From the IMG/VR virus record IMGVR_UViG_3300042564_000375, positions 1-23,372 of that record: DNA of 23,372 nt. The stretch is one strand, 5' to 3'. Within the stretch, counting starts at the first letter, position 1; each line of letters opens with the position of its first letter. The position numbers were made by a program, and so were the translations under genes. The notes beneath the pieces were generated by a model. That model searched no databases. It was given only the letters and a program-made list of their open reading frames with translations, and had not been told where the DNA came from. Of the stretch, positions 3,714-18,616 are shown in pieces. Source of the stretch: a virus.

Positions 3714-6700
3714 TTGGCAACGTCATCAAAGTTTGTAGTAAAGAACGGCTTAACAGCCGGCTCTACAGACGTAATAAATTCTTCTGGTCAATGGATCGGA
3801 CCTAATTCTGGATTGATTGGACCTCAGGGACCAATCGGTCCAATCGGACCTATTGGGCCAATCGGTGCAACAGGACCACAAGGACCTATTGGACCCATTG
3901 GTCCTATTGGTCCAATCGGTGCCACTGGACCTCAGGGTCCTATCGGACCTATTGGGCCAATCGGTGCAACAGGACCACAGGGACCAATTGGTCCAATCGG
4001 ACCTATTGGGCCTATTGGACCTCAGGGACCTATTGGTCCTATCGGACCTATCGGACCAACTGGACCACAGGGACCAATTGGTCCAATCGGACCTATTGGC
4101 AGTCAAGGTATAACAGGACCAACAGGACCACAGGGACCAATTGGACCTATTGGACCTATCGGCGTGGGATATGATGGCGTCACATCAACAACATCAGCCA
4201 CACCTTCAACTGGTGGAACTATTGTTCTCACTACAAATAAACAAGGTGCATTTGCCACCGGCACTAGAGTTCGTGCAATTAATACCACTTCAAATTTATT
4301 TGAGGGTACAGTAACCATTTCTAGTGGTACAAACTTTTCTATTGCATCCGACTTTTCCATTGGTTCAACACTCGCATCTTCTTGGACTATCGTAGCCGCT
4401 GGACACAGAGGTTCTACAGGACCAACAGGACCACAAGGACCAATCGGACCTATTGGACCTATTGGGCCTATCGGACCAACAGGACCACAAGGACCTATCG
4501 GGCCTATCGGACCTATTGGGCCTATCGGACCAACTGGACCTCAGGGACCAATCGGACCTATCGGACCTATTGGACCAATAGGGCCTATCGGACCGAGAGG
4601 TGCAACTGGTCCACAAGGACCTATCGGACCTATTGGCCCTATTGGTCCTATTGGACCAACTGGACCACAGGGACCTATCGGGCCTATCGGACCTATTGGT
4701 CCAATTGGGCCACAGGGACCTATTGGACCTATTGGCCCTATCGGACCTATTGGCCCTATCGGACCTATTGGTGTGCGAGGCGGTTCAACATGGACACCAG
4801 TTATGTCTGGTGGTGTTGTACAAGATGCAAGCGATTCATCAAACTTTTATAAAGCATCGGGAAGTAATCCAGGTTGGGACGGCCAGGTTTATTCGTTGCA
4901 AGGATACCCAACAGCATATTGTTCATTTAAAGCAAGTTCCACTGGAAACTACATTATGATGGGTTTGAATACAGATCCAACCAATGATGCAAGCTATGCT
5001 TCAATTAATTTTTCTTGGTATCCACAAGCCGGTGGCGGTTTAGAAATTTATGAAGGTACAACTAATGTAGGCAATTTTGGCACATACACAACATCTTCTA
5101 TAATGTCAATTACATATGATGGTTCTGTTGTAAGATACTATCTTGATGGTGTATTAAAACGTTCTGTTAGTGTTTCAGGTCAAGTACTTCACTTAGATTC
5201 ATCATTCTATTTCACAGGGGGAAACACAACAGGTTTAAATAGTGTGGTGTTTGGACCAATGGGTGGATTAGGACCAACGGGACCACAGGGACCTATTGGA
5301 CCTATTGGACCAATCGGACCTATTGGGCCACAAGGACCTATTGGACCCATTGGGCCAATCGGACCAATTGGTAATACTGGACCACAAGGACCTATTGGAC
5401 CCATTGGGCCAATCGGACCTATTGGGCCAGCAAGTTTTGCCGCAACATCTGTAAACGCCTCAACATCGACTGGCATTCAGACAAGCTATTCAACAACAAT
5501 TAACACAACAACACCTGCCACAGGAACTTACGGTATTAATTTTTCTGGAGGTGGTACCGCAGACTACGCACAAGGTATTACTTGGGCATGGTCTTCTTCG
5601 GGTTCTCAAGCGGGCATCTATGTTCAGTCATCTGGTTCATACGGCACTAAGATGTACTTTGCAACGACAGACTCGTTTGCAACTGGTTCAAAAACTGCAA
5701 TGGTTATTGACCATGGCGGCGTAATAACAACCACACGAAACTATCTTCAAGCCGCTAGTTCACTACGTGCTCCAATCTTCTATGATTCGGATAACACAAG
5801 TTACTACGTAGACCCAACCAGCACAACTTCACTAAGAACAGTTGGCTCTTGGCGTTCAGATTCATCGACTTGGGATGGTGATTTTTCAGGAAAAATTCAA
5901 TATCATTCTAATCACTGGTATATTCAAGCTGCCGATTTATTAATTTATAGAAACAGTGGAGGATCAAATGTATTCACTGTAAATCAAAGTGGTTCAGCAG
6001 TTGCATCCGCAGACATGCGAGCACCGTTCTTTTATGATTCGGATAACACCGCATATTATGGCAATTTTGCAGGTGCATCAAATATAAATTCAATGCAGAT
6101 GGCTGGTACTCTTTCATTGTTTGCTGGTTCATATGAAGGATCCATACTTTTTGGTACAGAGCCAACATGGCGTTGTGGTATTAGACAACATGATGATGCT
6201 GATGCAGAGTTAAGAATTTGGGCTAAAAACGCAAATGGTATGATCTTTCTGGCAACGGGTTACGATGGTGAACCAGGAGCGATTGCTAGACCTACAAATG
6301 GCATAGCTATACAAAATAATAATGTGGGTATTGGAAACTTCAGTTCAAGTGATCCATCATACGATTTACACGTAGCCGATGGTGGTATAGGATATGCAAC
6401 AGCATCTTGGCGTGCTCCAATCTTTTATGATTCTGATGACACCGCATATTACTTAAACCCCAACTCTTTGTCATATATATCGTCTATTCAGATAGTTGGG
6501 TATAATACCGCCTCGTCCGCTTTAATGTTGAATTGGCCAACGTCCGGTTATATTGGTGTTTATGGTTCTGTTGTCAACTCAGCAAAACTTTTAAACTTCC
6601 GTGGGACTGGTGGTGATACTTATCGAGTTTCAACTGCACAGATGGGTGGTGCGGCTTATATAAACGGTGATGCCACATCTGGAAACGAAAGTGCCGCAGT

Positions 6701-8723
6701 AATTATTGCTCCAGGTGGTGGTCGTTATGGTACAACCGCATCAACTGTTTCAGGTGCAATCAAGATTACAATTCCTGAACCAGTTACAGATGTTATGTGT
6801 ACAATGACAATTCGGGTTTACACATATGATGGAGCATCTTTTGAAATCACTTGTGGTGGTTATCCCTATGGTACGGGTGGAGCGTCTGGTTTTGTAAATG
6901 CTTTTGCATACATGAACTCACGTGGACGTGGAGCACTTAATGTGCGCTTCGGAAATGATGGATCAAATGCTTGTGTGTGGATTGGTGAAACAGGCACCTC
7001 TTGGAATTATCCGCAAGTTGCGGTAATTGATTTCACTACTGGTTATTACGGACGTGATCCAAAACATTATTCAGATGGTTGGGTGGTTTCTTTTGTAGGT
7101 TCTTTTAATACTGTATTTAACACAATAACAGTTTATCCACACGCAAATTCAAGTGCTAATGGTGGAAATGTGTATGCACCCATATATTATGATTCTGATG
7201 ACACTGCATATTACGTAAACCCCGCCAGCACATCAAACTTAAATGCCGTTAACTTTAATGGCGTTTTGGCATGGTCTAACGGTACGTACGCGCTAGGCTC
7301 ACCTAGCTACGGTTTTAGATTTAACGACACCGCAAGCACAATCAACGCATTTATTATTGCTAATAGTGGGGACACAACTTCTCACGCATCTTCACGTGCT
7401 CCGATTTTTTACGACAGTAACAATACTGGTTATTATTTGGATCCAGCATCAACTTCAGTATTAAACCAGACCAATATTGGTTATCCATATGTTGGCAACG
7501 TCATTAATATGTCGTTGCAGTCGGGTTCAATCGCAACATCTTCGTTTGTTGGTATTGAATTTCATGTACCAGGTAATAGAGATTATTATATTGGTAAATT
7601 TGCCGGTGCATGGACACAACCATTGGACATACACTTTTATACGGGCATAAGGATACAGGCACACCAAAGTTATGATTATGGTACTTCAATATGGAATCTT
7701 TCATCAGGTAATATTCAAGCAAGTTTTGGCCAAGGTGGTGATAACGTATATCTTTATAGAACAACGTATGCGCCAGCTATATATGACTACAACGACACTG
7801 CTTATTACATAGACCCTAACTCAACCAGTCGCATTAGAAAAACTAATTTAATAGCATCGGGTTCTGCTTGGGATGACGGCTTAAACTTATATTCTTCTGA
7901 TGCAACTAATAGATGGAATCTTTTAGTAGATGAAGGTGATTCAGATTCATTCCGTTTAGCCTATAATAATTCTGAGGCACTAAGGGTTAACACTTCCAGA
8001 AATGTAACAATAAATGTTGATATACGTTCACCAATTTTCTACGACAACAACGACACTTCGTATTACGTGGACGCTGCCAGCACAAGCGTATTAAATGCCG
8101 TCAACACATGGGGTGAAATTGGTCCTCGCCGCAATGATAACGGCAGTCTTTTACGTTCTTACAACACTTCTGCTGGCAGCCCATTGCAATTCTATCTCGA
8201 CCACAGTTTAGGTGACGTAAACATCGGCAACAGCCGTGGTATTGTAAATTGCGGCGGCACTTACTGGGTTATAGCGAACTCGGTTCGGTCACCTATCTTC
8301 TACGACAGTAACAACACCGCTTATTATGCAGATTTTGCAAGCACTGGTGATTCTATTAGAGCCGCTGGTAACATTACAGCATATTACTCCGATATGAGAC
8401 TGAAGACTCATCTAGGTAAAATTGAAAATGCTTTAGAGAAAGTCAATAAACTTGAAGGCTTTTATTATGAAGCAAATGAAGTTGCACAGAAACTAGGATA
8501 TAAACCAAAACGTGAAGTTGGTGTTTCAGCGCAAGATGTACAAGAAGTGTTACCTGAAATTGTGGCAGATGCACCAATCAATAGTAATTACTTAACAATT
8601 GATTATGAAAGACTTACACCATTGTTGATTGAAGCTATCAAAGAACAAAACAAAGAAGTCGTAGACCTTCGTGCTAGAGTAGCTATGCTCGAATCGCTTA
8701 TTTCCAAATTAATAGATGTATAA
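3714..8723 (+). CDS. Giant collagen-like tail fibre with C-terminal S74 intramolecular chaperone
   Basis: 1669 residues from a TTG start backed by a strong Shine-Dalgarno. Domains in order: an N-terminal cassette (1-35, KNGLTAGST...INSSGQW), collagen-like (Gly-X-Y) tract 1 (36-150), an 83-residue module also found in the next gene (about 151-232), tract 2 (233-356), a jelly-roll/lectin-like region (about 357-513, with [11 protein letters not shown] and [14 protein letters not shown], recalling LamG/concanavalin folds), and tract 3 (514-572). Then come beta-rich modules punctuated by eight FYDSxNTxYY repeats (685-1545), and an S74 peptidase/chaperone domain from Ser1559 to the end. Ser1559 and Lys1564 in SDMRLK match the Ser-Lys dyad of this family, so the last 111 residues are probably released after trimer folding. 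The C-terminus carries a coiled-coil-like helix. By family knowledge and context this is a distal host-recognition fibre; the receptor is unknown. Confidence 0.9.
3819..4163 (+). repeat. Collagen-like GPI tract 1 of first fibre
   Basis: Encodes uninterrupted Gly-X-Y triplets dominated by GPI, with GPQ, GAT and GPT interspersed roughly every 4-6 triplets. At DNA level it is a 9-base microsatellite (ggacctatt and synonymous forms) containing perfect palindromes, for example 3981-3994 and 4071-4084. Confidence 0.95.
4161..4409 (+). repeat. 83-codon module duplicated at 9079-9327
   Basis: Encodes a module beginning with [12 protein letters not shown] and including [21 protein letters not shown] and LASSWTIV. 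The same module, exactly 249 bases long and with only scattered substitutions, occurs at 9079-9327 in the paralogous fibre. In both it separates collagen tracts 1 and 2. I recall similar modules in fibres of other aquatic phages; the function is unknown. Confidence 0.85.
4410..4781 (+). repeat. Collagen-like GPI tract 2 of first fibre
   Basis: Gly-X-Y triplets from GSTGPTGPQ to GPIGVRG, almost all GPI with GPT/GPQ/GAT interruptions and one GPR. It links the 83-residue module to the lectin-like region. Confidence 0.95.
5253..5429 (+). repeat. Collagen-like GPI tract 3 of first fibre
   Basis: A shorter Gly-X-Y run ([12 protein letters not shown] then GPI triplets) between the lectin-like region and the repeat-rich distal region. 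Confidence 0.95.
5766..8350 (+). repeat. Eight dispersed 'R(A/S)PIFYDSxNTxYYxDP' repeats
   Basis: About 24-residue motifs start at 5766, 6018, 6411, 7173, 7395, 7767, 8025 and 8286 (residues 685, 769, 900, 1154, 1228, 1352, 1438 and 1525). The core is [10 protein letters not shown] followed by xDP(A/N)ST. Spacings range from 222 to 762 bases because different beta-rich inserts sit between them. The motif appears to mark module boundaries along the fibre shaft. I recall it in fibres of other aquatic phages. Confidence 0.85.
8388..8720 (+). other. S74 intramolecular chaperone/auto-peptidase domain (within fibre 1)
   Basis: Begins at Ser1559 in YSDMRLK and runs to the C-terminus (111 residues), with [16 protein letters not shown] and the helix [16 protein letters not shown]. 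These are the conserved blocks of Peptidase_S74, the chaperone of phage endosialidases, L-shaped tail fibres and eukaryotic MYRF. The family cleaves N-terminal to the Ser by a Ser-Lys dyad; both residues are present (Ser1559, Lys1564). Confidence 0.85.
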
Positions 8724-8730
8724 GTAGTAG

Positions 8731-11700
8731 ATGGCAAATCCAAATAATTTTACAATAAAGAATGGTCTGACTGTTGGTTCAACAGCAGTCATCAACTCAT
8801 CTGGCGTTTGGACAGGCAGTCCAACTAACTTGTCTGGTCCAACAGGACCAACAGGACCTCAAGGTCCAATCGGACCTATCGGGCCAATTGGACCTATTGG
8901 ACCAATCGGTGCTACTGGACCAACAGGACCTCAGGGTCCAATCGGGCCTATCGGACCAATCGGACCTACAGGACCACAGGGACCAATCGGACCTATTGGA
9001 CCAACAGGACCTCAGGGACCTATTGGACCTATTGGTCCCATTGGACCTATCGGACCACAAGGACCAATCGGGCCAATCGGTGTCGGTTATGATGGCGTTA
9101 CATCAACTACTTCTGTAACACCTGCTTCTATTGGAACAATCGTTCTCACTACAAACAAGCAAGGTGCTTTTGCTACAGGCACCAGAATTCGTGCAGTCAA
9201 CACAGCCGCAAATTATTTTGAAGGTGTTGTCACAATCACATCTGGTACAAACTTCTCTATTGCGGCAGACTTCAACGTTGGTACAACACTCGCATCATCT
9301 TGGACAATCGTGTCAGCCGGTCATAGAGGTTCTACTGGACCACAAGGACCAATTGGACCTATTGGGCCTATCGGACCTATCGGACCACAAGGACCTATCG
9401 GGCCTATCGGACCAATTGGACCTATCGGACCTCAGGGACCTATTGGGCCTATCGGGCCAATCGGACCTATCGGTGCTACTGGACCTCAGGGACCAATCGG
9501 ACCTATTGGACCTATTGGACCAAGAGGTGCAACTGGACCACAAGGACCAATCGGACCCATTGGACCAATTGGTAACCAAGGACCTATCGGGCCAATTGGA
9601 CCTATCGGCGCAACTGGACCACAAGGACCCATCGGACCTATTGGACCAATTGGTAACCAAGGACCTATTGGACCCATTGGGCCTATCGGACCAATCGGGC
9701 CGACAGGACCACAAGGACCAATTGGACCTATCGGACCTATTGGTAACCAAGGACCTATTGGACCCATTGGGCCTATCGGACCTATTGGACCAAGAGGTGC
9801 CACAGGTCCACAAGGACCTATCGGACCTATTGGACCAATCGGACCAATCGGCAACACAGGACCACAAGGACCAATTGGACCTATCGGACCCATTGGACCT
9901 ATCGGGCCAATTGGAGCAGTTGCACCAAACTTCACTTCTGCAATTTCCAGCAACCCATTAAACGCAAGTAGCCCCGCTTCACTCAATTCAATTGGTTATG
10001 TAAGTTCTAACATACCAACATCATACGGTATTGGTGGATCAGTAGGCTCACAAACTGACGGTGGATTATATGTAGCAGGTTACAGCACAGACTGGTACCA
10101 TGAAATATATGGCGACTTTAGAACTGGTGGTATTGCTGTAAGAGGTAAATATAGTGGTACATGGCAAGCGTGGAGAAATATTCCCACTATTACTATTAGT
10201 GATACAGCACCTTCAATTTTTACTCCTGGTGATTTCTGGTGGGAATCAGACACAGGTAAACTGAAAATACGATACTATGATGGAACCAGTTCGCAATGGG
10301 TTGATGCTTTCCCAATTCCAGATTTTACACTTTACTTTTCAAAAGCAGGTGGCACAATCACTGGACCAGTTACCGCAAACAGCACACTTACAGTAACAGG
10401 CACGACAAGTGTAGGCTCATTAAGAATTGAGGGATATGGTCAAGTTATCAATTCATCTGGAGCATGGACAGGTCCGAACAGCGGGCTGATTGGACCACAG
10501 GGTCCTATCGGACCTATTGGACCTATTGGACCTATCGGACCAATTGGCAACCAAGGACCAGGTGGTCCTGCCGGACCAATTGGACCTATCGGACCAATTG
10601 GCAACCAAGGACCAGGTGGTCCTGCCGGACCAATTGGACCTATCGGACCAATTGGGCCTATTGGACCTATTGGACCTAGGGGGCCAACAGGACCACAGGG
10701 TCCTATCGGACCTATCGGTCCTATTGGACCCATTGGACCTATTGGCGCTTCATTCTCAACCTCAAATCAAGGTAACTTCGAATTTGCGGCTTCCGATAAT
10801 AGTTCTACATCTTATTCAGTAGCCGCAATAGAACTTAGAGAATCTAATTTTGGTGGATCAGGTTCGTATCTTCCTCCACGTCTAGGGTTTCATTGGGGTG
10901 GCGTTGTTGCATCGCAGATTGGTGTTGCATCTAATGGTAGGATTGAAGTGCTTAATAATCCAGGTACAAGTTATGAAACACTGATAGGTTCGATTTTGTA
11001 TGGAAATGATTCTATTCGTGCTCCAATTTTCTATGATACTAATAACACTGGTTATTACTTAGACCCACATTCCAGTTCTTTGGTGAGTACACTACGTGCT
11101 GATTCCTATTTGTACGTGGGTAACGGCTCTCAGATGACGATTAACTACGATCAGATTTGGCGCTCCGATGGCGGTCAACTACATTTGCAATACAGTGCGG
11201 CCGGTAACATTAATATATGTAATGGTGGTGGTTACGCATATGCTGTAACTTCATTTCGTGCTCCGATTTTTTATGATTCTAATGATACAGGATATTATTT
11301 AAATCCAAATAGTACGTCTTATGTATATTTGATGTCGTCAGCAACTGGCTATCAATACACAGCATATAACTCAGGAAGAAACCGAATTTGGAGTTTTGCA
11401 AATTCTGATGGTTACGGAATGGCTTATTTCCAAGGCTCAGGTGGTTATAATGGCACTACCGACATGATTGGTATGCACTTTGGTACAGCAAGTGTGGCAG
11501 GTTGTCAATTTACGTTTGTGTCATCTGGAGCATTTATTGCTTCAAATAACATCACTGCTTATTCAGATTTAAGACTGAAAGAAAACATTCAAGTTATTCC
11601 AAATGCTCTTGAAAAAGTTAAACAGATTCGTGGTGTAACTTATACCAGAAATGACACTGAGGATAAAGACACCAAATATGCTGGTGTGATTGCTCAAGAA

Positions 11701-11865
11701 GTAATGAAAGTTTTACCAGAAGTTATTATGGGTTCAGAGGAAACCCAATATTCAGTTGCATACGGAAACATGGTTGGTCTACTCATCGAAGCCATCAAAG
11801 AACAACAAGAGCAGATTGATTCATTAAAGTCTGAAATACAATCACTTAAAGAATTAAGAAATTAA
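8731..11865 (+). CDS. Second collagen-like tail fibre with S74 chaperone (paralog of preceding gene)
   Basis: 1044 residues; ATG lies 7 bases after the previous stop, so translation is probably coupled. Domains: N-terminal cassette (1-35), collagen-like tract 1 (36-117), the shared 83-residue module (about 117-199), tract 2 (200-395, the longest), a beta region (about 396-560) with [20 protein letters not shown] and [20 protein letters not shown], an internal copy of the N-terminal cassette ([16 protein letters not shown]), and tract 3 (588-672). The distal part has two FYDSxNTxYY repeats (763 and 843) and an S74 domain from Ser945. The dyad Ser945/Lys950 in SDLRLK is intact, so about 100 residues should be cleaved after folding. 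It shares the N-terminal architecture of the preceding gene but has different distal inserts, suggesting two fibres with a common attachment point and different receptor-binding surfaces (inference). Confidence 0.9.
8836..9081 (+). repeat. Collagen-like GPI tract 1 of second fibre
   Basis: Gly-X-Y triplets (GPTGPTGPQ then GPI runs) directly after the N-terminal cassette, ending at GPIGVGYDG where the shared module begins. Confidence 0.95.
9079..9327 (+). repeat. Second copy of the 83-codon fibre module
   Basis: Same length (249 bases) and position between collagen tracts 1 and 2 as the copy at 4161-4409, with conservative substitutions such as [18 protein letters not shown] versus [18 protein letters not shown]. 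Confidence 0.85.
9328..9915 (+). repeat. Collagen-like GPI tract 2 of second fibre
   Basis: The longest Gly-X-Y run in the window, 196 residues. Blocks of GPI are separated by GPQ, GAT, GPR and GNQ triplets. The GNQ triplets recur as a [13 protein letters not shown] cassette, showing internal block duplication. Confidence 0.95.
10492..10746 (+). repeat. Collagen-like GPI tract 3 of second fibre
   Basis: Gly-X-Y run with two nearly identical 63-base cassettes encoding [18 protein letters not shown] in tandem (about 10543-10668), followed by GPRGPTGPQ and further GPI triplets. Confidence 0.95.
11017..11325 (+). repeat. Two FYDSxNTxYY repeats of second fibre
   Basis: Copies at 11017 ([17 protein letters not shown]) and 11257 ([17 protein letters not shown]) match the eight copies in the preceding fibre gene. 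Confidence 0.85.
11563..11862 (+). other. S74 intramolecular chaperone/auto-peptidase domain (within fibre 2)
   Basis: Begins at Ser945 in [11 protein letters not shown], with [16 protein letters not shown] and [12 protein letters not shown] blocks and a C-terminal coiled coil ([16 protein letters not shown]). Ser945 and Lys950 form the expected dyad. It is diverged from the copy in the preceding fibre, so the two are old paralogs and not a recent duplication. Confidence 0.85.
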
Positions 11866-11867
11866 TA

Positions 11868-12917
11868 ATGGCTTTTATTTTTCCAACTTCACCAACAACA
11901 GGAGCGCAATTCGTTGCACCAACAGGTTACATCTATCTGTATGATGCAGGACCATCATGGACAACAAAAGGTGATACACAAACAACAAACCCATTTACAA
12001 ACTCTTTTAGGTATAGAACAATATACACAAGAGGATATGTTTCAGCTGGATATAAAAGTAGTTCACCTTGGAGAAACGTAAACAAAACACAGCACTCAAC
12101 CGATGTGACTACTAATCTTGGAGACATGGTTGACTATAATGCTTCTTATATTGGCGGCGGCTTTAGTGATTATTATCATTATGTTTATGGAATGTCTGGT
12201 ACTGTAAATGGTTCTTCAACACACACATCATCTGTTAATATGTCAACAGATTCAGGAAGAACTCACAATTCTATATGGAACACAAAAACAAGTAGAGGTG
12301 ACTGTGAAGCATTAATGAACTCAACATTGACTGTGGCTTATATAACTGGCGGTGCTTCTTCAGCAACAGATAAACACAACTATGTAACAGAAACAATGTA
12401 TAATGCAGGTTCTGTAGGAGCCAATCCTGCAACATCTGGTGGTACAGCTGGTGGTGTAGCTTCGCTGTTTGGACAGTTTAGGGGATGGATTGCAGTTAAC
12501 AGCACCGCCGCTTACATAGAATGGGCTACAGAAACATGGACTTCTGGTACATGGAGTTCGGGATCAGACGGACAACCTAAAGGATTATCAACTAAAATGG
12601 GTTATGGTTATTGTGCAACAGGTTCTTACGGCGGTTCTGCAACATATAACAAATGGAATGATTTTGTTCCAGGTACAACCGTTATGACAACAGTAGCCAG
12701 ACCTGATACATGCGGTGAAGAAAATCACCAGATTGGACAAAATCACGGTTATAGTTTAGGTTCATACAACGGTAATCAAACAAACAATACACAAAAAATA
12801 AATTATCTAACTGATACTTCAACAGCTATGGGCTCAGACACGCAACCAAAAGGACATGATGGAATGAGTTCGGGATGTTGCGGCACAGCCTCAGCATTCT
12901 TATTGGGTGGTGTATAA
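11868..12917 (+). CDS. Repeat-rich virion protein, probable fibre accessory/adhesin, copy 1
   Basis: 349 residues, starting 3 bases after the stop of the second fibre and overlapping the next gene by one base (TAATG). Rich in Tyr, Thr, Ser, Gly and Asn; no signal peptide or membrane segment. The N-terminus (MAFIFPTSPTTG) is followed by loosely repeated Tyr/Gly-rich segments (YTRGYVSAGYKSSSPW, HSTDVTTNLGDMVDYNASY, DKHNYVTETMYNAG, IEWATETWTSGTW), suggesting propeller- or kelch-like blades. The C-terminus has a conserved QPKGHDGMSS motif, then GCCG. It is clearly homologous to the next gene along its whole length. Position after S74 fibres recalls T4 gene 38 (adhesin/assembly) downstream of gene 37, but there is no sequence resemblance to gp38. 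A structural or receptor-binding role is inferred from context. Confidence 0.8.
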   Translation: MAFIFPTSPTTGAQFVAPTGYIYLYDAGPSWTTKGDTQTTNPFTNSFRYRTIYTRGYVSAGYKSSSPWRNVNKTQHSTDVTTNLGDMVDYNASYIGGGFSDYYHYVYGMSGTVNGSSTHTSSVNMSTDSGRTHNSIWNTKTSRGDCEALMNSTLTVAYITGGASSATDKHNYVTETMYNAGSVGANPATSGGTAGGVASLFGQFRGWIAVNSTAAYIEWATETWTSGTWSSGSDGQPKGLSTKMGYGYCATGSYGGSATYNKWNDFVPGTTVMTTVARPDTCGEENHQIGQNHGYSLGSYNGNQTNNTQKINYLTDTSTAMGSDTQPKGHDGMSSGCCGTASAFLLGGV

Positions 12918-13945
12918 TGGCTTTTGATTTCCCTTCTTCACCATCAGTTGGTAACACTTATGTGTCAGATAATGGTGTACTTTACATATATGATTCTAAT
13001 AGTTCATGGACTGTTTACGGTGACACCCAAACATCGAATCCATTCTCAGCAAATCCATTTAAATACAGAACAATATATTACAAAGGGTATGTGGTAGGTG
13101 GTTATAAAGATACAAGCCCATGGAAGAACACCAATAAAACTATACATGCAACAGATACGACAACAAATTTAGGTGATTCGATAGATAGAAATGCCGCATA
13201 TGTTGATGGAAGTTATAATGATTATTATCAATACATATATGCAACCTCAGAATCGTGGCCTGGAACAGGAACATATACTTCGTCATACAATATGGTTACA
13301 GAATCGAGTAGAACATACGATTCTGCTCGGGATACGAAACAATCTATGGATGGTTATGGTGATGCCGGTGTAATAATAAATTCAAATCTCACTTTGGCTT
13401 GGATATTAGGAACAGCAACAAACATAGACAAACATAATTTGGTAACAGAAGTGATGTATGCAACAGGTCAAGGTGGTTCAGCCGGCACTCCAGGTGATTT
13501 TGTTTGTACATGGTATGGACAATATTACGGATGGGTTAAACAGTCATATTCGGGAAGTCGTAATCACAAGATTGAATTTGCCACAGAAACATGGAGTTCG
13601 GCTGGACTAACAGTTGGTACTGACGGCTGGGGTAAAGCATTGATAACAAAAGAAGGTTATGCTTACGTTAAAAACGGTGGTAATATAACTGCAAGTGCAT
13701 ATAAAATAAATGATACAACTGGTTCAAATATTAGAACTGATTTAAGTTTTAACAATTCTGGTGAAGAAAATTATGAAACAGGACAAAATTGGGGTTATTG
13801 TTTAGGTGAATATAATGGCGCACAAAACAACAACACATATAAAGTGACACATGGTACGGATACATATACTGTGCTAGGGTCAACAGCACAACCAAAAGGG
13901 CATGATGGAATGAGTTCTGCCGCAATGGCATCAGCATCAGTTTGA
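12917..13945 (+). CDS. Repeat-rich virion protein, probable fibre accessory/adhesin, copy 2 (paralog)
   Basis: 342 residues from ATG at 12917, which overlaps the upstream stop (TAATG); the frame extends back to 12875, but the N-terminus MAFDFPSSPSVGNTYV aligns with that of the preceding protein, fixing this start. Shared blocks are GDTQTSNPF, KYRTIYYKGYVVGGYKDTSPW, ATDTTTNLGDSIDRNAAY, DKHNLVTEVMYATG, SGEENYETGQNWGYCLGEYN and the C-terminal QPKGHDGMSS. The loops between differ strongly, as expected for a receptor-binding pair that diverged after tandem duplication. The QPKGHDGMSS end is the best conserved segment, so it may attach both proteins to a common partner (inference). The function has not been assigned from sequence. 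Confidence 0.8.
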   Translation: MAFDFPSSPSVGNTYVSDNGVLYIYDSNSSWTVYGDTQTSNPFSANPFKYRTIYYKGYVVGGYKDTSPWKNTNKTIHATDTTTNLGDSIDRNAAYVDGSYNDYYQYIYATSESWPGTGTYTSSYNMVTESSRTYDSARDTKQSMDGYGDAGVIINSNLTLAWILGTATNIDKHNLVTEVMYATGQGGSAGTPGDFVCTWYGQYYGWVKQSYSGSRNHKIEFATETWSSAGLTVGTDGWGKALITKEGYAYVKNGGNITASAYKINDTTGSNIRTDLSFNNSGEENYETGQNWGYCLGEYNGAQNNNTYKVTHGTDTYTVLGSTAQPKGHDGMSSAAMASASV

Positions 13946-13955
13946 GGATAAACAC

Positions 13956-14507
13956 ATGAGATATTTTTTAGCAAATTTTAAGAGAAATATTCCACAAGGA
14001 ATTTCACAAGTAACATCAATGAGTGGTTTCCAAATATATAGTGTGAGTGATGAAATGTTGGAAACTAATCCTTTTGACGGCGTAACACACGAAGAAATAC
14101 CAGAAATTGAGGGTACGGTTGCTTGGAAATTTTATGGTGAAGTTAGAGGATATAGGTCTGCATATTCCGATGTTGAAGGCTTGGAGCCAGATGCAGATCA
14201 ACTTGCACAAGGTAAAAGAAAAACAAAAGTTTACCACACACCAGAAACAGAAGCCGCAACGGTTAGTTTATTAAAGCGTGTGTTCAGGTTGAATGTTCAA
14301 GAAATATTTGATGCAAGAGATAGCAGAGATGGTGAACAAGAAATTTTAAATGCAATTGAATCTTGCACGACAGTTAGAGAAATTGCGTATAAAAAGGAAG
14401 AATTATTGGGTATAGAAATGACCAGAACACAGTTGAGAGAATTGTTTATGTGGGATGAAACTACAGATTCAAGAAAAGGTAAGATGCATTTTATTTTAGG
14501 ATTTTAA
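13956..14507 (+). CDS. Hypothetical phage protein (183 aa)
   Basis: Starts with ATG at 13956 behind GAGG that overlaps the TGA stop of the previous gene. I do not recognise a family. The N-terminal half is beta/loop-like (MRYFLANFKRNIPQG...), with a TVAWKFYGEVRGYRSAYSDVE stretch around residues 50-70. The C-terminal half is charged and helical (RRVFRLNVQEIFDARD-like, AYKKEELLGIEMTRTQLRELF). No membrane or signal segment. A 1-base gap to the next gene implies co-translation. The position just after the fibre/adhesin cluster makes a fibre-assembly or attachment role possible but unproven. Confidence 0.75.
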   Translation: MRYFLANFKRNIPQGISQVTSMSGFQIYSVSDEMLETNPFDGVTHEEIPEIEGTVAWKFYGEVRGYRSAYSDVEGLEPDADQLAQGKRKTKVYHTPETEAATVSLLKRVFRLNVQEIFDARDSRDGEQEILNAIESCTTVREIAYKKEELLGIEMTRTQLRELFMWDETTDSRKGKMHFILGF

Positions 14508-14508
14508 T

Positions 14509-15222
14509 ATGGAAAATAATCAGATTTATGAAATTGTTGAAAATTATGGCTCATGGGCAATGTCAGATTTTCAGTCAAGATACTTTGTTGTAAACTCACA
14601 AGTAACAAATTATAGGAGAGTTAGACAGGCATTATTGGAAATAGAAACAAGACTGGCCGCAAAAAGACAAATCGAAAGAAACGTTTGGAAAACTAACACT
14701 CAGATTAAAATACTTAATCGAGATATTGAAAATGAAATTGATGAATTAAAGAAAGAATTATTATTCATCGAGTTAGATCAATTCAATTATGATCTGAATG
14801 TTTATGAGAGAAAATATAAAGTATGCATGGAAGAGTTGGACAATTTTGCTAAAATAATTAAAGATATTGTTCCAACAGTTGAAGATTTGAAAAGCTATGA
14901 GAAGCACGATGAAGTTGAAGAACGCAATTATTGGGTCACCAGAATGGCCAAACAAGCCGCAATGGATTTAATGTCTCAAGGTAGAATCGGACAAGGTAAT
15001 TTAGATTCTATTGCAATGATGCCACTTCACGACCAAGAAGAAACCATTAAGGCCGCATTGAAATACAATACGGTTTTAAATAGAGGTATTGGTGTGTTGG
15101 AAAAGAAAGCACTCGAAGAACTAGAAATGTCCCAAAATAAACCTGGTGACATGAATTATATTGATGATGTAGTTAAACAACAACTTAAAATTGAAAATAA
15201 AAATCAAGGTGAAAATATTTAG
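14509..15222 (+). CDS. Hypothetical coiled-coil phage protein (237 aa)
   Basis: Follows the previous stop by one base. Strongly charged and helical: residues about 40-115 (RRVRQALLEIETRLAAKRQ ... LNRDIENEIDELKKELLF) look like a long coiled coil. A second helical region (about 140-220) contains NYWVTRMAKQAAMDLMSQGR and a MPLHDQEETIKAAL segment. No enzyme motif or membrane segment is visible. Its end overlaps the start of the next gene. Unknown family; a scaffold, chaperone or adaptor is conceivable from the coiled coil and location. Confidence 0.75.
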   Translation: MENNQIYEIVENYGSWAMSDFQSRYFVVNSQVTNYRRVRQALLEIETRLAAKRQIERNVWKTNTQIKILNRDIENEIDELKKELLFIELDQFNYDLNVYERKYKVCMEELDNFAKIIKDIVPTVEDLKSYEKHDEVEERNYWVTRMAKQAAMDLMSQGRIGQGNLDSIAMMPLHDQEETIKAALKYNTVLNRGIGVLEKKALEELEMSQNKPGDMNYIDDVVKQQLKIENKNQGENI

Positions 15223-16837
15223 TATACCCCTCAATCCCAAGCTGAATGAGGAACAGTTCAACGAATTCTTAGAGTTTTGTAAAACGTATAAAGATTACAT
15301 ATACGACATATACTTTACTTGCAGGATTGCACCGTTTCTTCAGGACGCTATGGGTGATATCTTCATACAAACAGAAGATAATTTATTTGCCATTCAGACC
15401 GCACTTCATGTTCAAAGAGAAACTGGTATTCCAGTATCTGCAACTTTTAATAACATTGAAGTGCGGCCAGACCAAAAGAACCTGGACATTTGGATTAAAA
15501 ATTTCAGGCCATTGTACGAGTCTGGAATCAAAACCTGCACCCTACCACATACACATTGGATGAAAACTGGTCAAATTAAGTCAGAATTTCCAGACTTGTT
15601 TGTAAAGAATACCATTCTTCGGAATGTAAGTGAAGCCAGAGATGTTGCAAATTTGGCAGAGGCTGGTTTTGATTACGTAAACCTAGACCGAGATTTGATG
15701 AGAGATCAAGTAAGACTTGGTGAAATTAAAAAAGTAAAAGAAAAATACAATATAAAAATTTCACTTCTTGCTAATGAAGGTTGTTTAGGTGGTTGTCCAG
15801 TAATGGATGAACACTTTCAGTTCAACAACACAAGAACTGGACCACAATATTTCAATGACCCAATTAGTAGGGTCAGTTGTCCACAATGGGACACACACGA
15901 CAAAGCAATTGCATTAAAAACGGCAAACTTTCCACCTTGGAGAGAAGACTGGATTGAATTGTTACAGTACGTAGACGTAATCAAAATGCATGGTCGGGAA
16001 AGCACCGACAGAATGTTTGAGACTATGAATATCATCAAACGTTTTGTAAATAACGATGAGGTTTTATTTGATACATTTGACGACTATTTGAAAGAAACAG
16101 GTCTTGAAAATAAGCCGATTGATATCTGGCGCAATAAGATAAAAACATGTAAGTTTGATTGTTGGGATTGTAACTACTGTGATAAGGTTTGGCACGCCAA
16201 AGGCAATACAAACAACAAAAAAGTTGAAGCTGTAGCAAACATATTAGTAGATTCGGTAAATCTTAAATTGAACCGAACAGTAGAAGGTATAACTGCAAAC
16301 CGAACCAGACAATTATTGAATCAATTAGGTAAAATATCAACGTCATATCTTGAAATTGGTGTTTTAAATGGTGGCACTTTCTGTAGTACTTTGGATGGAA
16401 ATTCACTCAAAGCATATGCAGTAGACCATTGGAAGAATGAAACACAAGCATCAAACGGAACAACAAACATAAAAACGTCAAAACAAACATTCATAGATAA
16501 TGTTAGACAGTTTAAAAATGATAATACCGTTAGACTCTTTGACAGTCATTTTTTACAGGTCGATAAAAAACAAATAGATTACATTGATATGTTTTTCTAT
16601 GACGCCGAACACTCACATGAGATGACAAGTGCCGCAGTTAGGTATTTCTCAGATAAATTTAGAGATGAATCCATATTGATTTTTGATGATGCAAACTTTG
16701 ACGGAGTAGTTTCTGGAGCAAAAGAAGGTATCAAAGAAGCAGGGTTAGAAGTAATTTATGAGAAGCTAATTCTAAATGAAATGGAAGATCCAGACCAATG
16801 GTGGAATGGACTGTATATTGTAATTATTAGGAAATAA
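15209..16837 (+). CDS. U32-peptidase-like Fe-S domain fused to a class I SAM methyltransferase
   Basis: 542 residues from GTG at 15209 (MKIFSIPLNPKL), overlapping the previous gene by 14 bases; an in-frame TTG at 15191 is the alternative start. Residues 1-330 look like a TIM-barrel of the U32 peptidase/UbiU-UbiV/RlhA group: LDRDLMRD, then ISLLANEGCLGGCPVMDEH matching the family's 'NxxCLxxCPxR' signature. Cysteines are at 192, 196, 224 and a 314/318/321/324 cluster (CKFDCWDCNYC), enough to hold an Fe-S cluster. Residues about 375-542 form a Methyltransf_24-like domain: YLEIGVLNGGTFC (motif I, Glu382), YAVDHWKNE, then MFFYDAEHSHEMT and ILIFDDANFDG. In bacteria, Fe-S U32 proteins act in hydroxylation of RNA or ubiquinone precursors. 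A combined modification of a tRNA, lipid or sugar substrate is inferred; no substrate is visible. Confidence 0.8.
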   Translation: MKIFSIPLNPKLNEEQFNEFLEFCKTYKDYIYDIYFTCRIAPFLQDAMGDIFIQTEDNLFAIQTALHVQRETGIPVSATFNNIEVRPDQKNLDIWIKNFRPLYESGIKTCTLPHTHWMKTGQIKSEFPDLFVKNTILRNVSEARDVANLAEAGFDYVNLDRDLMRDQVRLGEIKKVKEKYNIKISLLANEGCLGGCPVMDEHFQFNNTRTGPQYFNDPISRVSCPQWDTHDKAIALKTANFPPWREDWIELLQYVDVIKMHGRESTDRMFETMNIIKRFVNNDEVLFDTFDDYLKETGLENKPIDIWRNKIKTCKFDCWDCNYCDKVWHAKGNTNNKKVEAVANILVDSVNLKLNRTVEGITANRTRQLLNQLGKISTSYLEIGVLNGGTFCSTLDGNSLKAYAVDHWKNETQASNGTTNIKTSKQTFIDNVRQFKNDNTVRLFDSHFLQVDKKQIDYIDMFFYDAEHSHEMTSAAVRYFSDKFRDESILIFDDANFDGVVSGAKEGIKEAGLEVIYEKLILNEMEDPDQWWNGLYIVIIRK

Positions 16838-16838
16838 A

Positions 16839-17876
16839 ATGTTTTTATTGAAAGGTTTAGAATATTTGTGGATGCTGGTATTCATTATGATTACCGCAGG
16901 TATTGCAAAAGAACAAAATCTTTTTGCTAGTGCGTTTGCATATATTCAAGATACTGTTAAAAGCAATCGTATAATGGTTGCATTGGTTTCAGCAATTGGT
17001 GGAATTTTACCAATCGAGGGTCGGGTTACAGTCAGTGCTGGTGTATTAGACACGATGTGTTCAAATCATTCACACAATCACGGTAGAGAAAAAATGGGTA
17101 TCGTGGACTACCTTGGCAATCACCATTATTATCTTTGGAGTCCATTAGAAAAGACGGTCATTTTACCAATTGCCGCATTTGGTTTAACTTATGCCGCATG
17201 GATGTCAATGGTTTGGCCACTTCTCGCAGTATCACTTGCATTCATTGCAGGTTATATTTTCTTCACAGTTAAAGAAGAAGATATACATATCGACCGTACA
17301 GGTGACTTTAAAATTTCAGCAGTGCTTCGGAACGTTTTACCTTTCTTTACCGCAATAGGTGTCTACATTTATATGGGTGGAAAAGACAATGTTTTTGAAA
17401 TCTTTGGATTGCTTGCATTATATTATTGTTTGATTACCCAAACCTGGGATTACAAAAAGATTTTTAACTATATTAACTGGCAGGTTGTTCTTACTGTTGC
17501 AGTTGCTATTATTCTAGGCAACTATTTCAAATCACAAGAAGCTATGTTCAAAGCATGGTTGACAGGTTCGGTTATTGATCCAACAACTCTTGTAGGCATG
17601 GCAACCATTAGTGCAATCGGTTTTATTGCCAGTTTTCTGATGGGTAGTAGCGGAAAATACATAGCATTTGCTGTATTAACCGCACAGGTTTTTGGAGTAG
17701 AATATTTCTTATGGTTCTTTGCTGTTGATTATGTTGGATATCTAATAAGTCCAACACACAAATGTGTTGCCGTTGGAAATAGATACTTTGGAACTCCATT
17801 GGCTACATACTATAAAGCATTAGGAACTTGGGGTGTATCAATGCTTTTAGTTGCTGGTCTGTTTACTTTCATATAA
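16839..17876 (+). CDS. Polytopic membrane protein, DUF401-like permease
   Basis: 345 residues with about nine or ten hydrophobic helices, for example LEYLWMLVFIMITAGIA near the start, VILPIAAFGLTYAAW, VVLTVAVAIILGNYF and MLLVAGLFTFI at the end. GGILPIEGRVTVSAGVLDTM resembles the 'LPMPGGxxxSAP' signature of DUF401, and the later DYLGNHHYYLWSPLEKTVILP matches the family's 'NYWFRHxWEYxWPLYP' segment; DYVGYLISPTHKCVAVGNRYF matches the C-terminal 'GxLLSPxHxCLVxT' region. DUF401 proteins belong to the ion-transporter-like permeases with no settled substrate. A His-rich loop (HSHNHGREK ... GNHHYY) lies between the second and third helices and could bind metal. One base separates it from the preceding gene, so the two probably work together. 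Very unusual between structural genes. Confidence 0.75.
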   Translation: MFLLKGLEYLWMLVFIMITAGIAKEQNLFASAFAYIQDTVKSNRIMVALVSAIGGILPIEGRVTVSAGVLDTMCSNHSHNHGREKMGIVDYLGNHHYYLWSPLEKTVILPIAAFGLTYAAWMSMVWPLLAVSLAFIAGYIFFTVKEEDIHIDRTGDFKISAVLRNVLPFFTAIGVYIYMGGKDNVFEIFGLLALYYCLITQTWDYKKIFNYINWQVVLTVAVAIILGNYFKSQEAMFKAWLTGSVIDPTTLVGMATISAIGFIASFLMGSSGKYIAFAVLTAQVFGVEYFLWFFAVDYVGYLISPTHKCVAVGNRYFGTPLATYYKALGTWGVSMLLVAGLFTFI

Positions 17877-17897: not shown

Positions 17898-18191
17898 ATG
17901 TCAATTAACTATAATTATTCAATAAACACAGTAAAGAAAATTAATGAAAATGGATTTGAAAATGCTGTTGTTCAAGTCTATTGGTCATTAGTAGGTACAA
18001 ATGAATCTGGTCAAACCAGTAGAGTGCATGGAACCTCTACTTTTTCTACCAATGAATTAAATTCAAATGAAGATTTTATACCATTCGACCAAGTGTCTGA
18101 TGAAACTATTGTTTCTTGGATACAAAATTCCGTCTCGGAAGAACAAGATACACACATGAAAAATCTAATACAACAAGAAATCGGTGTATAA
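17898..18191 (+). CDS. Small late protein, paralog of next gene (97 aa)
   Basis: Sits directly behind a perfect late promoter. Contains AVVQVYWSLVGTNESGQTSRV and FIPFDQVSDETIVSWIQNSV, which align with AVVQTYWQKIGTDENGN and FIPFEDLTEEDVLDWIKTVV in the following gene, so the two arose by duplication. I recall this fold from small proteins of aquatic T4-like phages near the neck genes (possibly the group named DUF7936; not certain). No membrane or enzyme motif. Strong late promoters suggest an abundant late product, so a minor virion or assembly protein is plausible. Confidence 0.75.
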   Translation: MSINYNYSINTVKKINENGFENAVVQVYWSLVGTNESGQTSRVHGTSTFSTNELNSNEDFIPFDQVSDETIVSWIQNSVSEEQDTHMKNLIQQEIGV

Positions 18192-18229
18192 TCATTCACC
18201 ATAACCTGCCCACATTTTAGGAGAAAATA

Positions 18230-18616
18230 ATGGCAATTACTTACACATGGAAAATTACCGGTCTAAAGACCAAAGACGTATCAGACGACAAACCAGCGGC
18301 TGTTGTACAAACATACTGGCAAAAGATTGGTACAGATGAGAACGGAAACGAAGGAACATTCTCTGGTGCAACACCGTTTACGGTTGACCCAACAGATGAG
18401 TCTGGTCCATTCATTCCCTTTGAAGATTTGACGGAAGAAGATGTACTAGACTGGATCAAAACAGTCGTTGTCGGTGGCTATGCAGATCATGTTAACGGGC
18501 AGATTGCAAAACAGATTGAAGACAAGATCAGTCCAGTGGTGGAGAATCGTTTACCATGGGCGCCAGTTACGGCAAACACTCCAGCCCCTGGCATGAGTGC
18601 TAATACAGCTGGATAA
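18230..18616 (+). CDS. Small late protein, second paralog (128 aa)
   Basis: Preceded by AGGAGA 5 bases before the ATG. Starts MAITYTWKITGLKTKDV, then AVVQTYWQKIGTDENGNEG, FSGATPFTVD, FIPFEDLTEEDVLDWIKTVV and a polar Pro-rich tail (APVTANTPAPGMSANTAG) absent from the shorter paralog upstream. The first half looks like a beta-sandwich with alternating strands and the second like a helix. Function unknown; likely late virion-related. Confidence 0.75.
   Translation: MAITYTWKITGLKTKDVSDDKPAAVVQTYWQKIGTDENGNEGTFSGATPFTVDPTDESGPFIPFEDLTEEDVLDWIKTVVVGGYADHVNGQIAKQIEDKISPVVENRLPWAPVTANTPAPGMSANTAG

Follow-up and report, generated by a model that had tools for sequence, protein, structure and literature searches.

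A candidate hydroxylase/O-methyltransferase fusion protein of T4-like phages, encoded beside fibre-type genes

Introduction

A single open reading frame in a 23,372-nucleotide stretch of viral DNA (IMG/VR record IMGVR_UViG_3300042564_000375, hereafter the window) appears to join a U32-type Fe–S domain to a SAM-dependent methyltransferase. The question raised by this locus is what reaction such a protein would catalyse for a phage, and on which substrate. The U32 oxidases have been recognised as a class only recently, and neither a settled mechanism nor more than a few substrates are known for them. A first-pass annotation of the window, made from the sequence alone, had proposed a two-step hydroxylation/methylation enzyme, and this proposal was followed up here by computational analysis.

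Results

The fusion gene and its distribution

The fusion frame was read from the GTG at position 15209, which was preferred to an alternative TTG start at 15191 because homolog conservation begins at the motif FSxP. The motifs NEGCLGGCP, YLEIG and FYDAEHSHEM were all found in the translated protein. The 542-residue frame and the seven cysteines listed by the first-pass annotation were confirmed at exactly the same positions (192, 196, 224, 314, 318, 321 and 324), and the cysteines were 100% conserved in 63 aligned homologous sequences. A set of 163 loci was fetched, in which a contig was at times represented by several overlapping records; 161 open frames contained both halves, while the first half alone was met at one contig end only, under two locus ids. 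Since all complete-enough frames are fused and the lone first half is a contig end, the fusion is no artefact. The same two-domain order was recovered in cyanophages and in environmental T4-like phages.

Table 1. Features of the fusion gene and of its surroundings in the window
Feature	Position	Strand	Remarks
Two tandem related PHROG 1417 genes	11868..13945	+	Occupy the position of the repeat-rich T4-GC351 protein; the collagen-like fibres lie upstream
Conserved partner, 183 aa, PHROG 1604	13956..14507	+	Position equivalent to T4-GC352
Conserved upstream partner, 237 aa, PHROG 1409	14509..15222	+	Position equivalent to T4-GC353; 14-nt overlap with the fusion gene
U32-like/Methyltransf_24 fusion gene	15209..16837	+	542 aa; PHROG 1458, T4-GC354
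U32-like TIM-barrel half (predicted), residues 2-328	15212..16192	+	C192, C196, C224 within the barrel; C314-x3-C318-x2-C321-x2-C324 at the barrel end
Class I SAM O-methyltransferase half (predicted), residues 360-542	16286..16834	+	SAM motif E382-x-G384-x3-G388; putative metal/base residues D465, H468, D493, D494
Integral membrane protein, DUF401-like, PHROG 14035	16839..17876	+	Homolog in 65 of 88 loci, in most cases as the next gene downstream

The fusion is carried by hundreds of T4-like phages. Full-length homologs at about 40-45% identity, annotated as hypothetical, were present in 123 phage records, all of them cyanophages, and two scans of IMG/VR with different queries yielded matches that were confirmed in 456 and at least 584 cases, respectively. 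In the PHROGs comparison the protein was assigned as a whole to PHROG 1458, a family of unknown function, and its homolog in annotated cyanophage isolates is T4-GC354. The first-pass annotation knew of no described phage system of such architecture; this holds in that no function is on record, while the family itself is already catalogued. In the literature searched, to which subscription journals did not belong, no description of a phage U32 protein was found. Plasmids were searched as well and yielded no homolog. A match to psbA was obtained twice in each of four cyanophages and in none of 22 environmental records (up to 200 kb); as these 22 records, several of which are fragments, lack such a match, the hosts of fusion-bearing phages are suggested to extend beyond cyanobacteria.

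In the Prochlorococcus phage P-SSM3 (locus L261, 3001-4688) the match to the homolog is split in two and no CDS is annotated for it; the gene looks broken in this record. UbiV- and TrhP-like matches in phage records were discarded, since most of these records are short contigs that lack annotation or are clearly of bacterial origin. A 269-residue 'Peptidase' of Escherichia phage OLB35 (BFVD A0A3G3MCS7) is structurally similar to the U32 half and possibly represents another phage U32 family.

The first half belongs to a divergent U32 clade

Peptidase_U32 (PF01136) was not matched above the gathering score in the fusion protein or in any of 42 homologs, and when the U32 half was compared directly, by sequence, with Pfam, NCBIfam and the PDB, no matches were obtained. 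Single-sequence profile comparison with the E. coli U32 proteins was weak. AlphaFold predicted a confident barrel (mean pLDDT of 86 for the whole protein and 83 for the half alone) with less confident cysteine regions. In a search of the PDB by predicted fold, the isolated half retrieved the U32 structure 5D88 first (E 7.4e-7), followed by aldolases at 4e-6 and then by other barrels. The structure comparison suggested in the first-pass annotation, for which the lack of a U32 fold would have been contrary evidence, thus returned a predicted U32-type TIM barrel, with a modest margin of 5D88 over other barrels. As this margin was modest, evidence was sought at the sequence level.

Cellular relatives were sampled in Chloroflexota and Thermoplasmatota. 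A profile search of Chloroflexota revealed standalone relatives with E-values down to 1e-32, in which all seven cysteines align, and two more distant relatives from the same phylum exceeded the Pfam U32 cut-off (57.7 and 31.1 bits). In Thermoplasmatota, no convincing homolog was found beyond that of the starting MAG contig, where the gene is truncated by the contig end. In profile comparisons, the phage half matched the cellular seven-cysteine clade at 99.8% (E 7e-28), and this clade matched the TrhP/RlhA/UbiU-type U32 proteins at 98.9% (E 1e-17). The direct comparison of the phage half with canonical U32 reached only 43% (E 2.5e-4), in register. The controls, for which the sequence was reversed or four other TIM-barrel proteins were taken, all stayed below 2%. 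A joint profile of clade and phage sequences retrieved 5D88 from the PDB at E 9.7e-7 and no other significant match. By way of the cellular clade, C192 aligns with C170 of TrhP. Homology of the first half to U32 is well supported by these profile comparisons.

U32 proteins display the cysteine motif CX6CX15CX3/4C (PMC6747719; PMC11574389). This motif is absent from the phage half, where CX3CX27C and CX3CX2CX2C are found instead, invariant in the 63 sequences. A glutamate is essential in TrhP and RlhA (PMC6599085); the column aligned with TrhP E162 holds Ser or Ala, with an invariant E190 nearby. Because of the missing Pfam match, the different cysteine spacing and the lack of a Glu162 equivalent, the first half is, as judged from sequence, a member of a divergent seven-cysteine U32 clade and not a canonical U32 protein. 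The U32-like half of the first-pass annotation is thus retained as a U32-type barrel, on the basis of the fold, the profile chain and the joint profile, in this divergent form. The seven-cysteine clade, with its standalone bacterial members, is hereby defined.

We know of no experimentally tested member of this clade, which counts for a reading in which the U32-like half would use Fe–S chemistry for another reaction, be it a reduction, a rearrangement or a different oxidation, while the methyltransferase would act on the product or on something else. A cysteine layout unlike that of the U32 oxidases (PMC6747719) and the lost TrhP-essential Glu point in the same direction. That the half is homologous to TrhP and RlhA, and that its first barrel cysteine aligns in register with theirs, argues against it, as do the DAHP synthase and O-methyltransferase genes that adjoin the cellular relatives, and such a different reaction is considered somewhat unlikely.

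Genes surrounding the cellular relatives

An O-methyltransferase of another family (PF00891) adjoins three of the six closest cellular homologs (two identified by Pfam, the third by clustering). DAHP synthase likewise adjoins three cellular relatives, again two by Pfam and one by clustering (L191, L197/L255 and L232); both counts are low, and some of the loci are related to one another. DAHP synthase is the first enzyme of the shikimate pathway, which leads to prephenate. In hydroxylation by U32 proteins, prephenate is reported to supply the oxygen (PMC11574389). Both neighbourhoods count for the hydroxylase/O-methyltransferase reading. The cellular relatives also adjoin several unrelated gene sets, including FabF-, FabG- and acyl-CoA-ligase-like genes, which counts against it.

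Among the Chloroflexota relatives, three loci with an adjoining O-methyltransferase gene (L193, 4739-7014; L194, 4307-6676; L229) have TAT-signal reductive-dehalogenase-like genes nearby. The FabF-, FabG- and acyl-CoA-ligase-like genes recur beside a more distant seven-cysteine subgroup (L233-L246), hinting at acyl or polyketide substrates for that subgroup.

The second half resembles metal-dependent O-methyltransferases

The assignment of the second half to Methyltransf_24 (PF13578) was borne out by Pfam: it was the sole match in the fusion protein, scoring 39.2 bits where the cut-off is 26.3, and was obtained with 42/42 homologs. The SAM motif residues E382, G384, G388 and D406 are invariant in the 42 homologs, as are D465, D493, D494, A495 and N496, and H468 is present in 41 of them. 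As the putative catalytic residues are kept throughout, both halves are probably active.

The best match of this half in a PDB sequence search was TrmR (E 0.0012), whose D133, D159 and N160 align with D465, D493 and D494, and whose Lys136 aligns with H468. We take D133, D159 and N160 to be the metal-binding residues of TrmR. They are in line with the metal site described for the COMT family (PMC6543040). The Asp-Asp-Asn metal site and catalytic Lys of TrmR/COMT enzymes (PF01596) were not found in the phage protein, which has Asp465, His468, Asp493 and Asp494 instead. The spacing of D465, H468 and D494, all near-invariant, is that of D275, H278 and D304 in MycE (Asp-x2-His, with Asp at +29), the site of MycE-type Mg-dependent sugar O-methyltransferases (PMC9275233). 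A PDB sequence search gave no significant full-length match to MycE. Because this metal/His constellation is kept, metal-dependent O-methylation is the most likely chemistry of the second half, and a sugar or diol would be a more likely substrate than a wobble uridine, the constellation being of the MycE type and not the Asp/Lys/Asp/Asn of TrmR.

The match to TrmR, together with the two-step logic shared with TrhP1/TrhP2 and TrmR (PMC6599085), would fit a modifier of tRNA or rRNA, a TrhP and a TrmR in one chain making a 5-methoxypyrimidine-like base to tune translation during infection. Such an RNA modifier is held to be improbable: K136 and N160 of TrmR are replaced by H468 and D494 of a MycE-like site, TrmR came only 19th by fold among many methyltransferases, and the gene is linked to fibre-module genes and not to tRNA genes.

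The fusion gene travels with fibre-type genes

The placement within a phage virion gene cluster, as annotated initially, was supported. The window is a T4-like structural region, in which the cassette around the fusion gene (Table 1) is followed by head-tail adaptor, head closure, tail sheath stabilizer and terminase genes. Across 88 loci, the partners PHROG 1604, PHROG 1417 and PHROG 1409 were present in 81, 77 and 71 loci, respectively, usually upstream. The order of T4-GC351, 352, 353 and 354 is constant in cyanophages, also where identity between the fusion proteins has fallen to 44%. Linkage is looser in S-ShM2, where the fusion gene lies several kb from T4-GC353. The conserved gene order with a fibre-type and two small proteins suggests, by position, that the fusion serves a fibre or receptor module. 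A transporter-like protein, such as the DUF401-like PHROG 14035 product, is unusual for a phage. The neighbouring genes were also examined for a clue to the substrate and did not pin it down.

Two long collagen-like fibre genes lie upstream (3714-11865), each with a Peptidase_S74 endosialidase-type chaperone domain at its end. A second tandem duplication, of two PHROG 7802 genes, is located at 17898-18616, just upstream of the neck genes.

The U32 family owes its name to collagenase-type proteases. Together with the collagen-like fibre genes of the window, this name would agree with a protease or collagenase that trims the fibres. Of 59 loci whose upstream sequence was long enough, only 24 had a collagen-like frame, a co-occurrence that gives no support to collagen processing, and the candidate function was rejected. 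The seven invariant cysteines and the characterisation of U32 proteins as Fe–S hydroxylation factors (PMC11574389) also make it very improbable.

Discussion

The fusion protein is tentatively proposed to be a bifunctional hydroxylase/O-methyltransferase of T4-like phages, probably serving the tail-fibre/receptor module. The seven invariant cysteines would probably hold Fe–S clusters, of which one may lie near C192/C196/C224 and another within the CX3CX2CX2C motif. The U32-like barrel may then install a hydroxyl group without O2, probably with prephenate as the oxygen donor as in known U32 oxidases, and Mg-dependent O-methylation of a hydroxyl would follow at the Asp/His/Asp-Asp site of the second half, in the simplest case of the group that the barrel has introduced. 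Sequential action on one substrate is inferred from the fusion itself and from the TrhP/TrmR and TrhO-TrmR precedents. The substrate would most likely belong to the tail-fibre/receptor module, as a sugar on a fibre adhesin or as a host surface or lipid-linked molecule, because the gene is accompanied by those of a fibre-type protein and of two small proteins and, in non-cyanophages, also by that of a membrane protein. Of the first-pass proposal, the pairing of a hydroxylase with a methyltransferase stands as plausible, given the U32 homology, the MycE-like site and the precedents; the Fe–S clusters, the hydroxylation and the substrate keep their conditional status.

A broader claim, of a new phage enzyme class in which a two-cluster U32 oxidase would hydroxylate, and a fused O-methyltransferase then methylate, a phage-fibre or host-receptor component, and which T4-like phages would carry across marine and fresh waters, is regarded as unlikely at present. 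If it is true, virion or host surface molecules could receive methoxy groups by a route that needs no O2. The fusion points to an undescribed modification made by phages, and a single-chain U32/methyltransferase protein present in hundreds of them offers a compact, testable system for U32 chemistry.

Comparison with known systems

An established pairing is found in Bacillus subtilis, where trhP1, trhP2 and trmR lie in one operon and U32 hydroxylation is followed by O-methylation to give 5-methoxyuridine; three species have a fusion of TrmR with a different hydroxylase, TrhO (PMC6599085). Both share with the phage protein the pairing of a hydroxylase with an O-methyltransferase. They differ in that the proteins are separate or the fused hydroxylase is of the rhodanese type, and in that the methyltransferase is COMT-like with a Lys/Asn site.

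The phage half resembles TrhP, RlhA, UbiU/UbiV and Mk0906 (5D88) in its predicted TIM barrel and is homologous to them by profile, the first barrel cysteine falling in register; their CX6CX15CX3/4C contrasts with its CX3C...C and CX3CX2CX2C. It further departs from U32 oxidases by the lack of a Glu162 equivalent and of a Pfam match, and by the fused methyltransferase. The MycE/TylE-type Mg-dependent sugar O-methyltransferases have an identical spacing of Asp-x2-His and Asp(+29), but full-length similarity to MycE was not significant in the PDB search. Finally, PHROG 1458/T4-GC354 of cyanophages is the same family as the window protein, so far annotated as hypothetical only; this widespread family now gains a hypothesis for its function.
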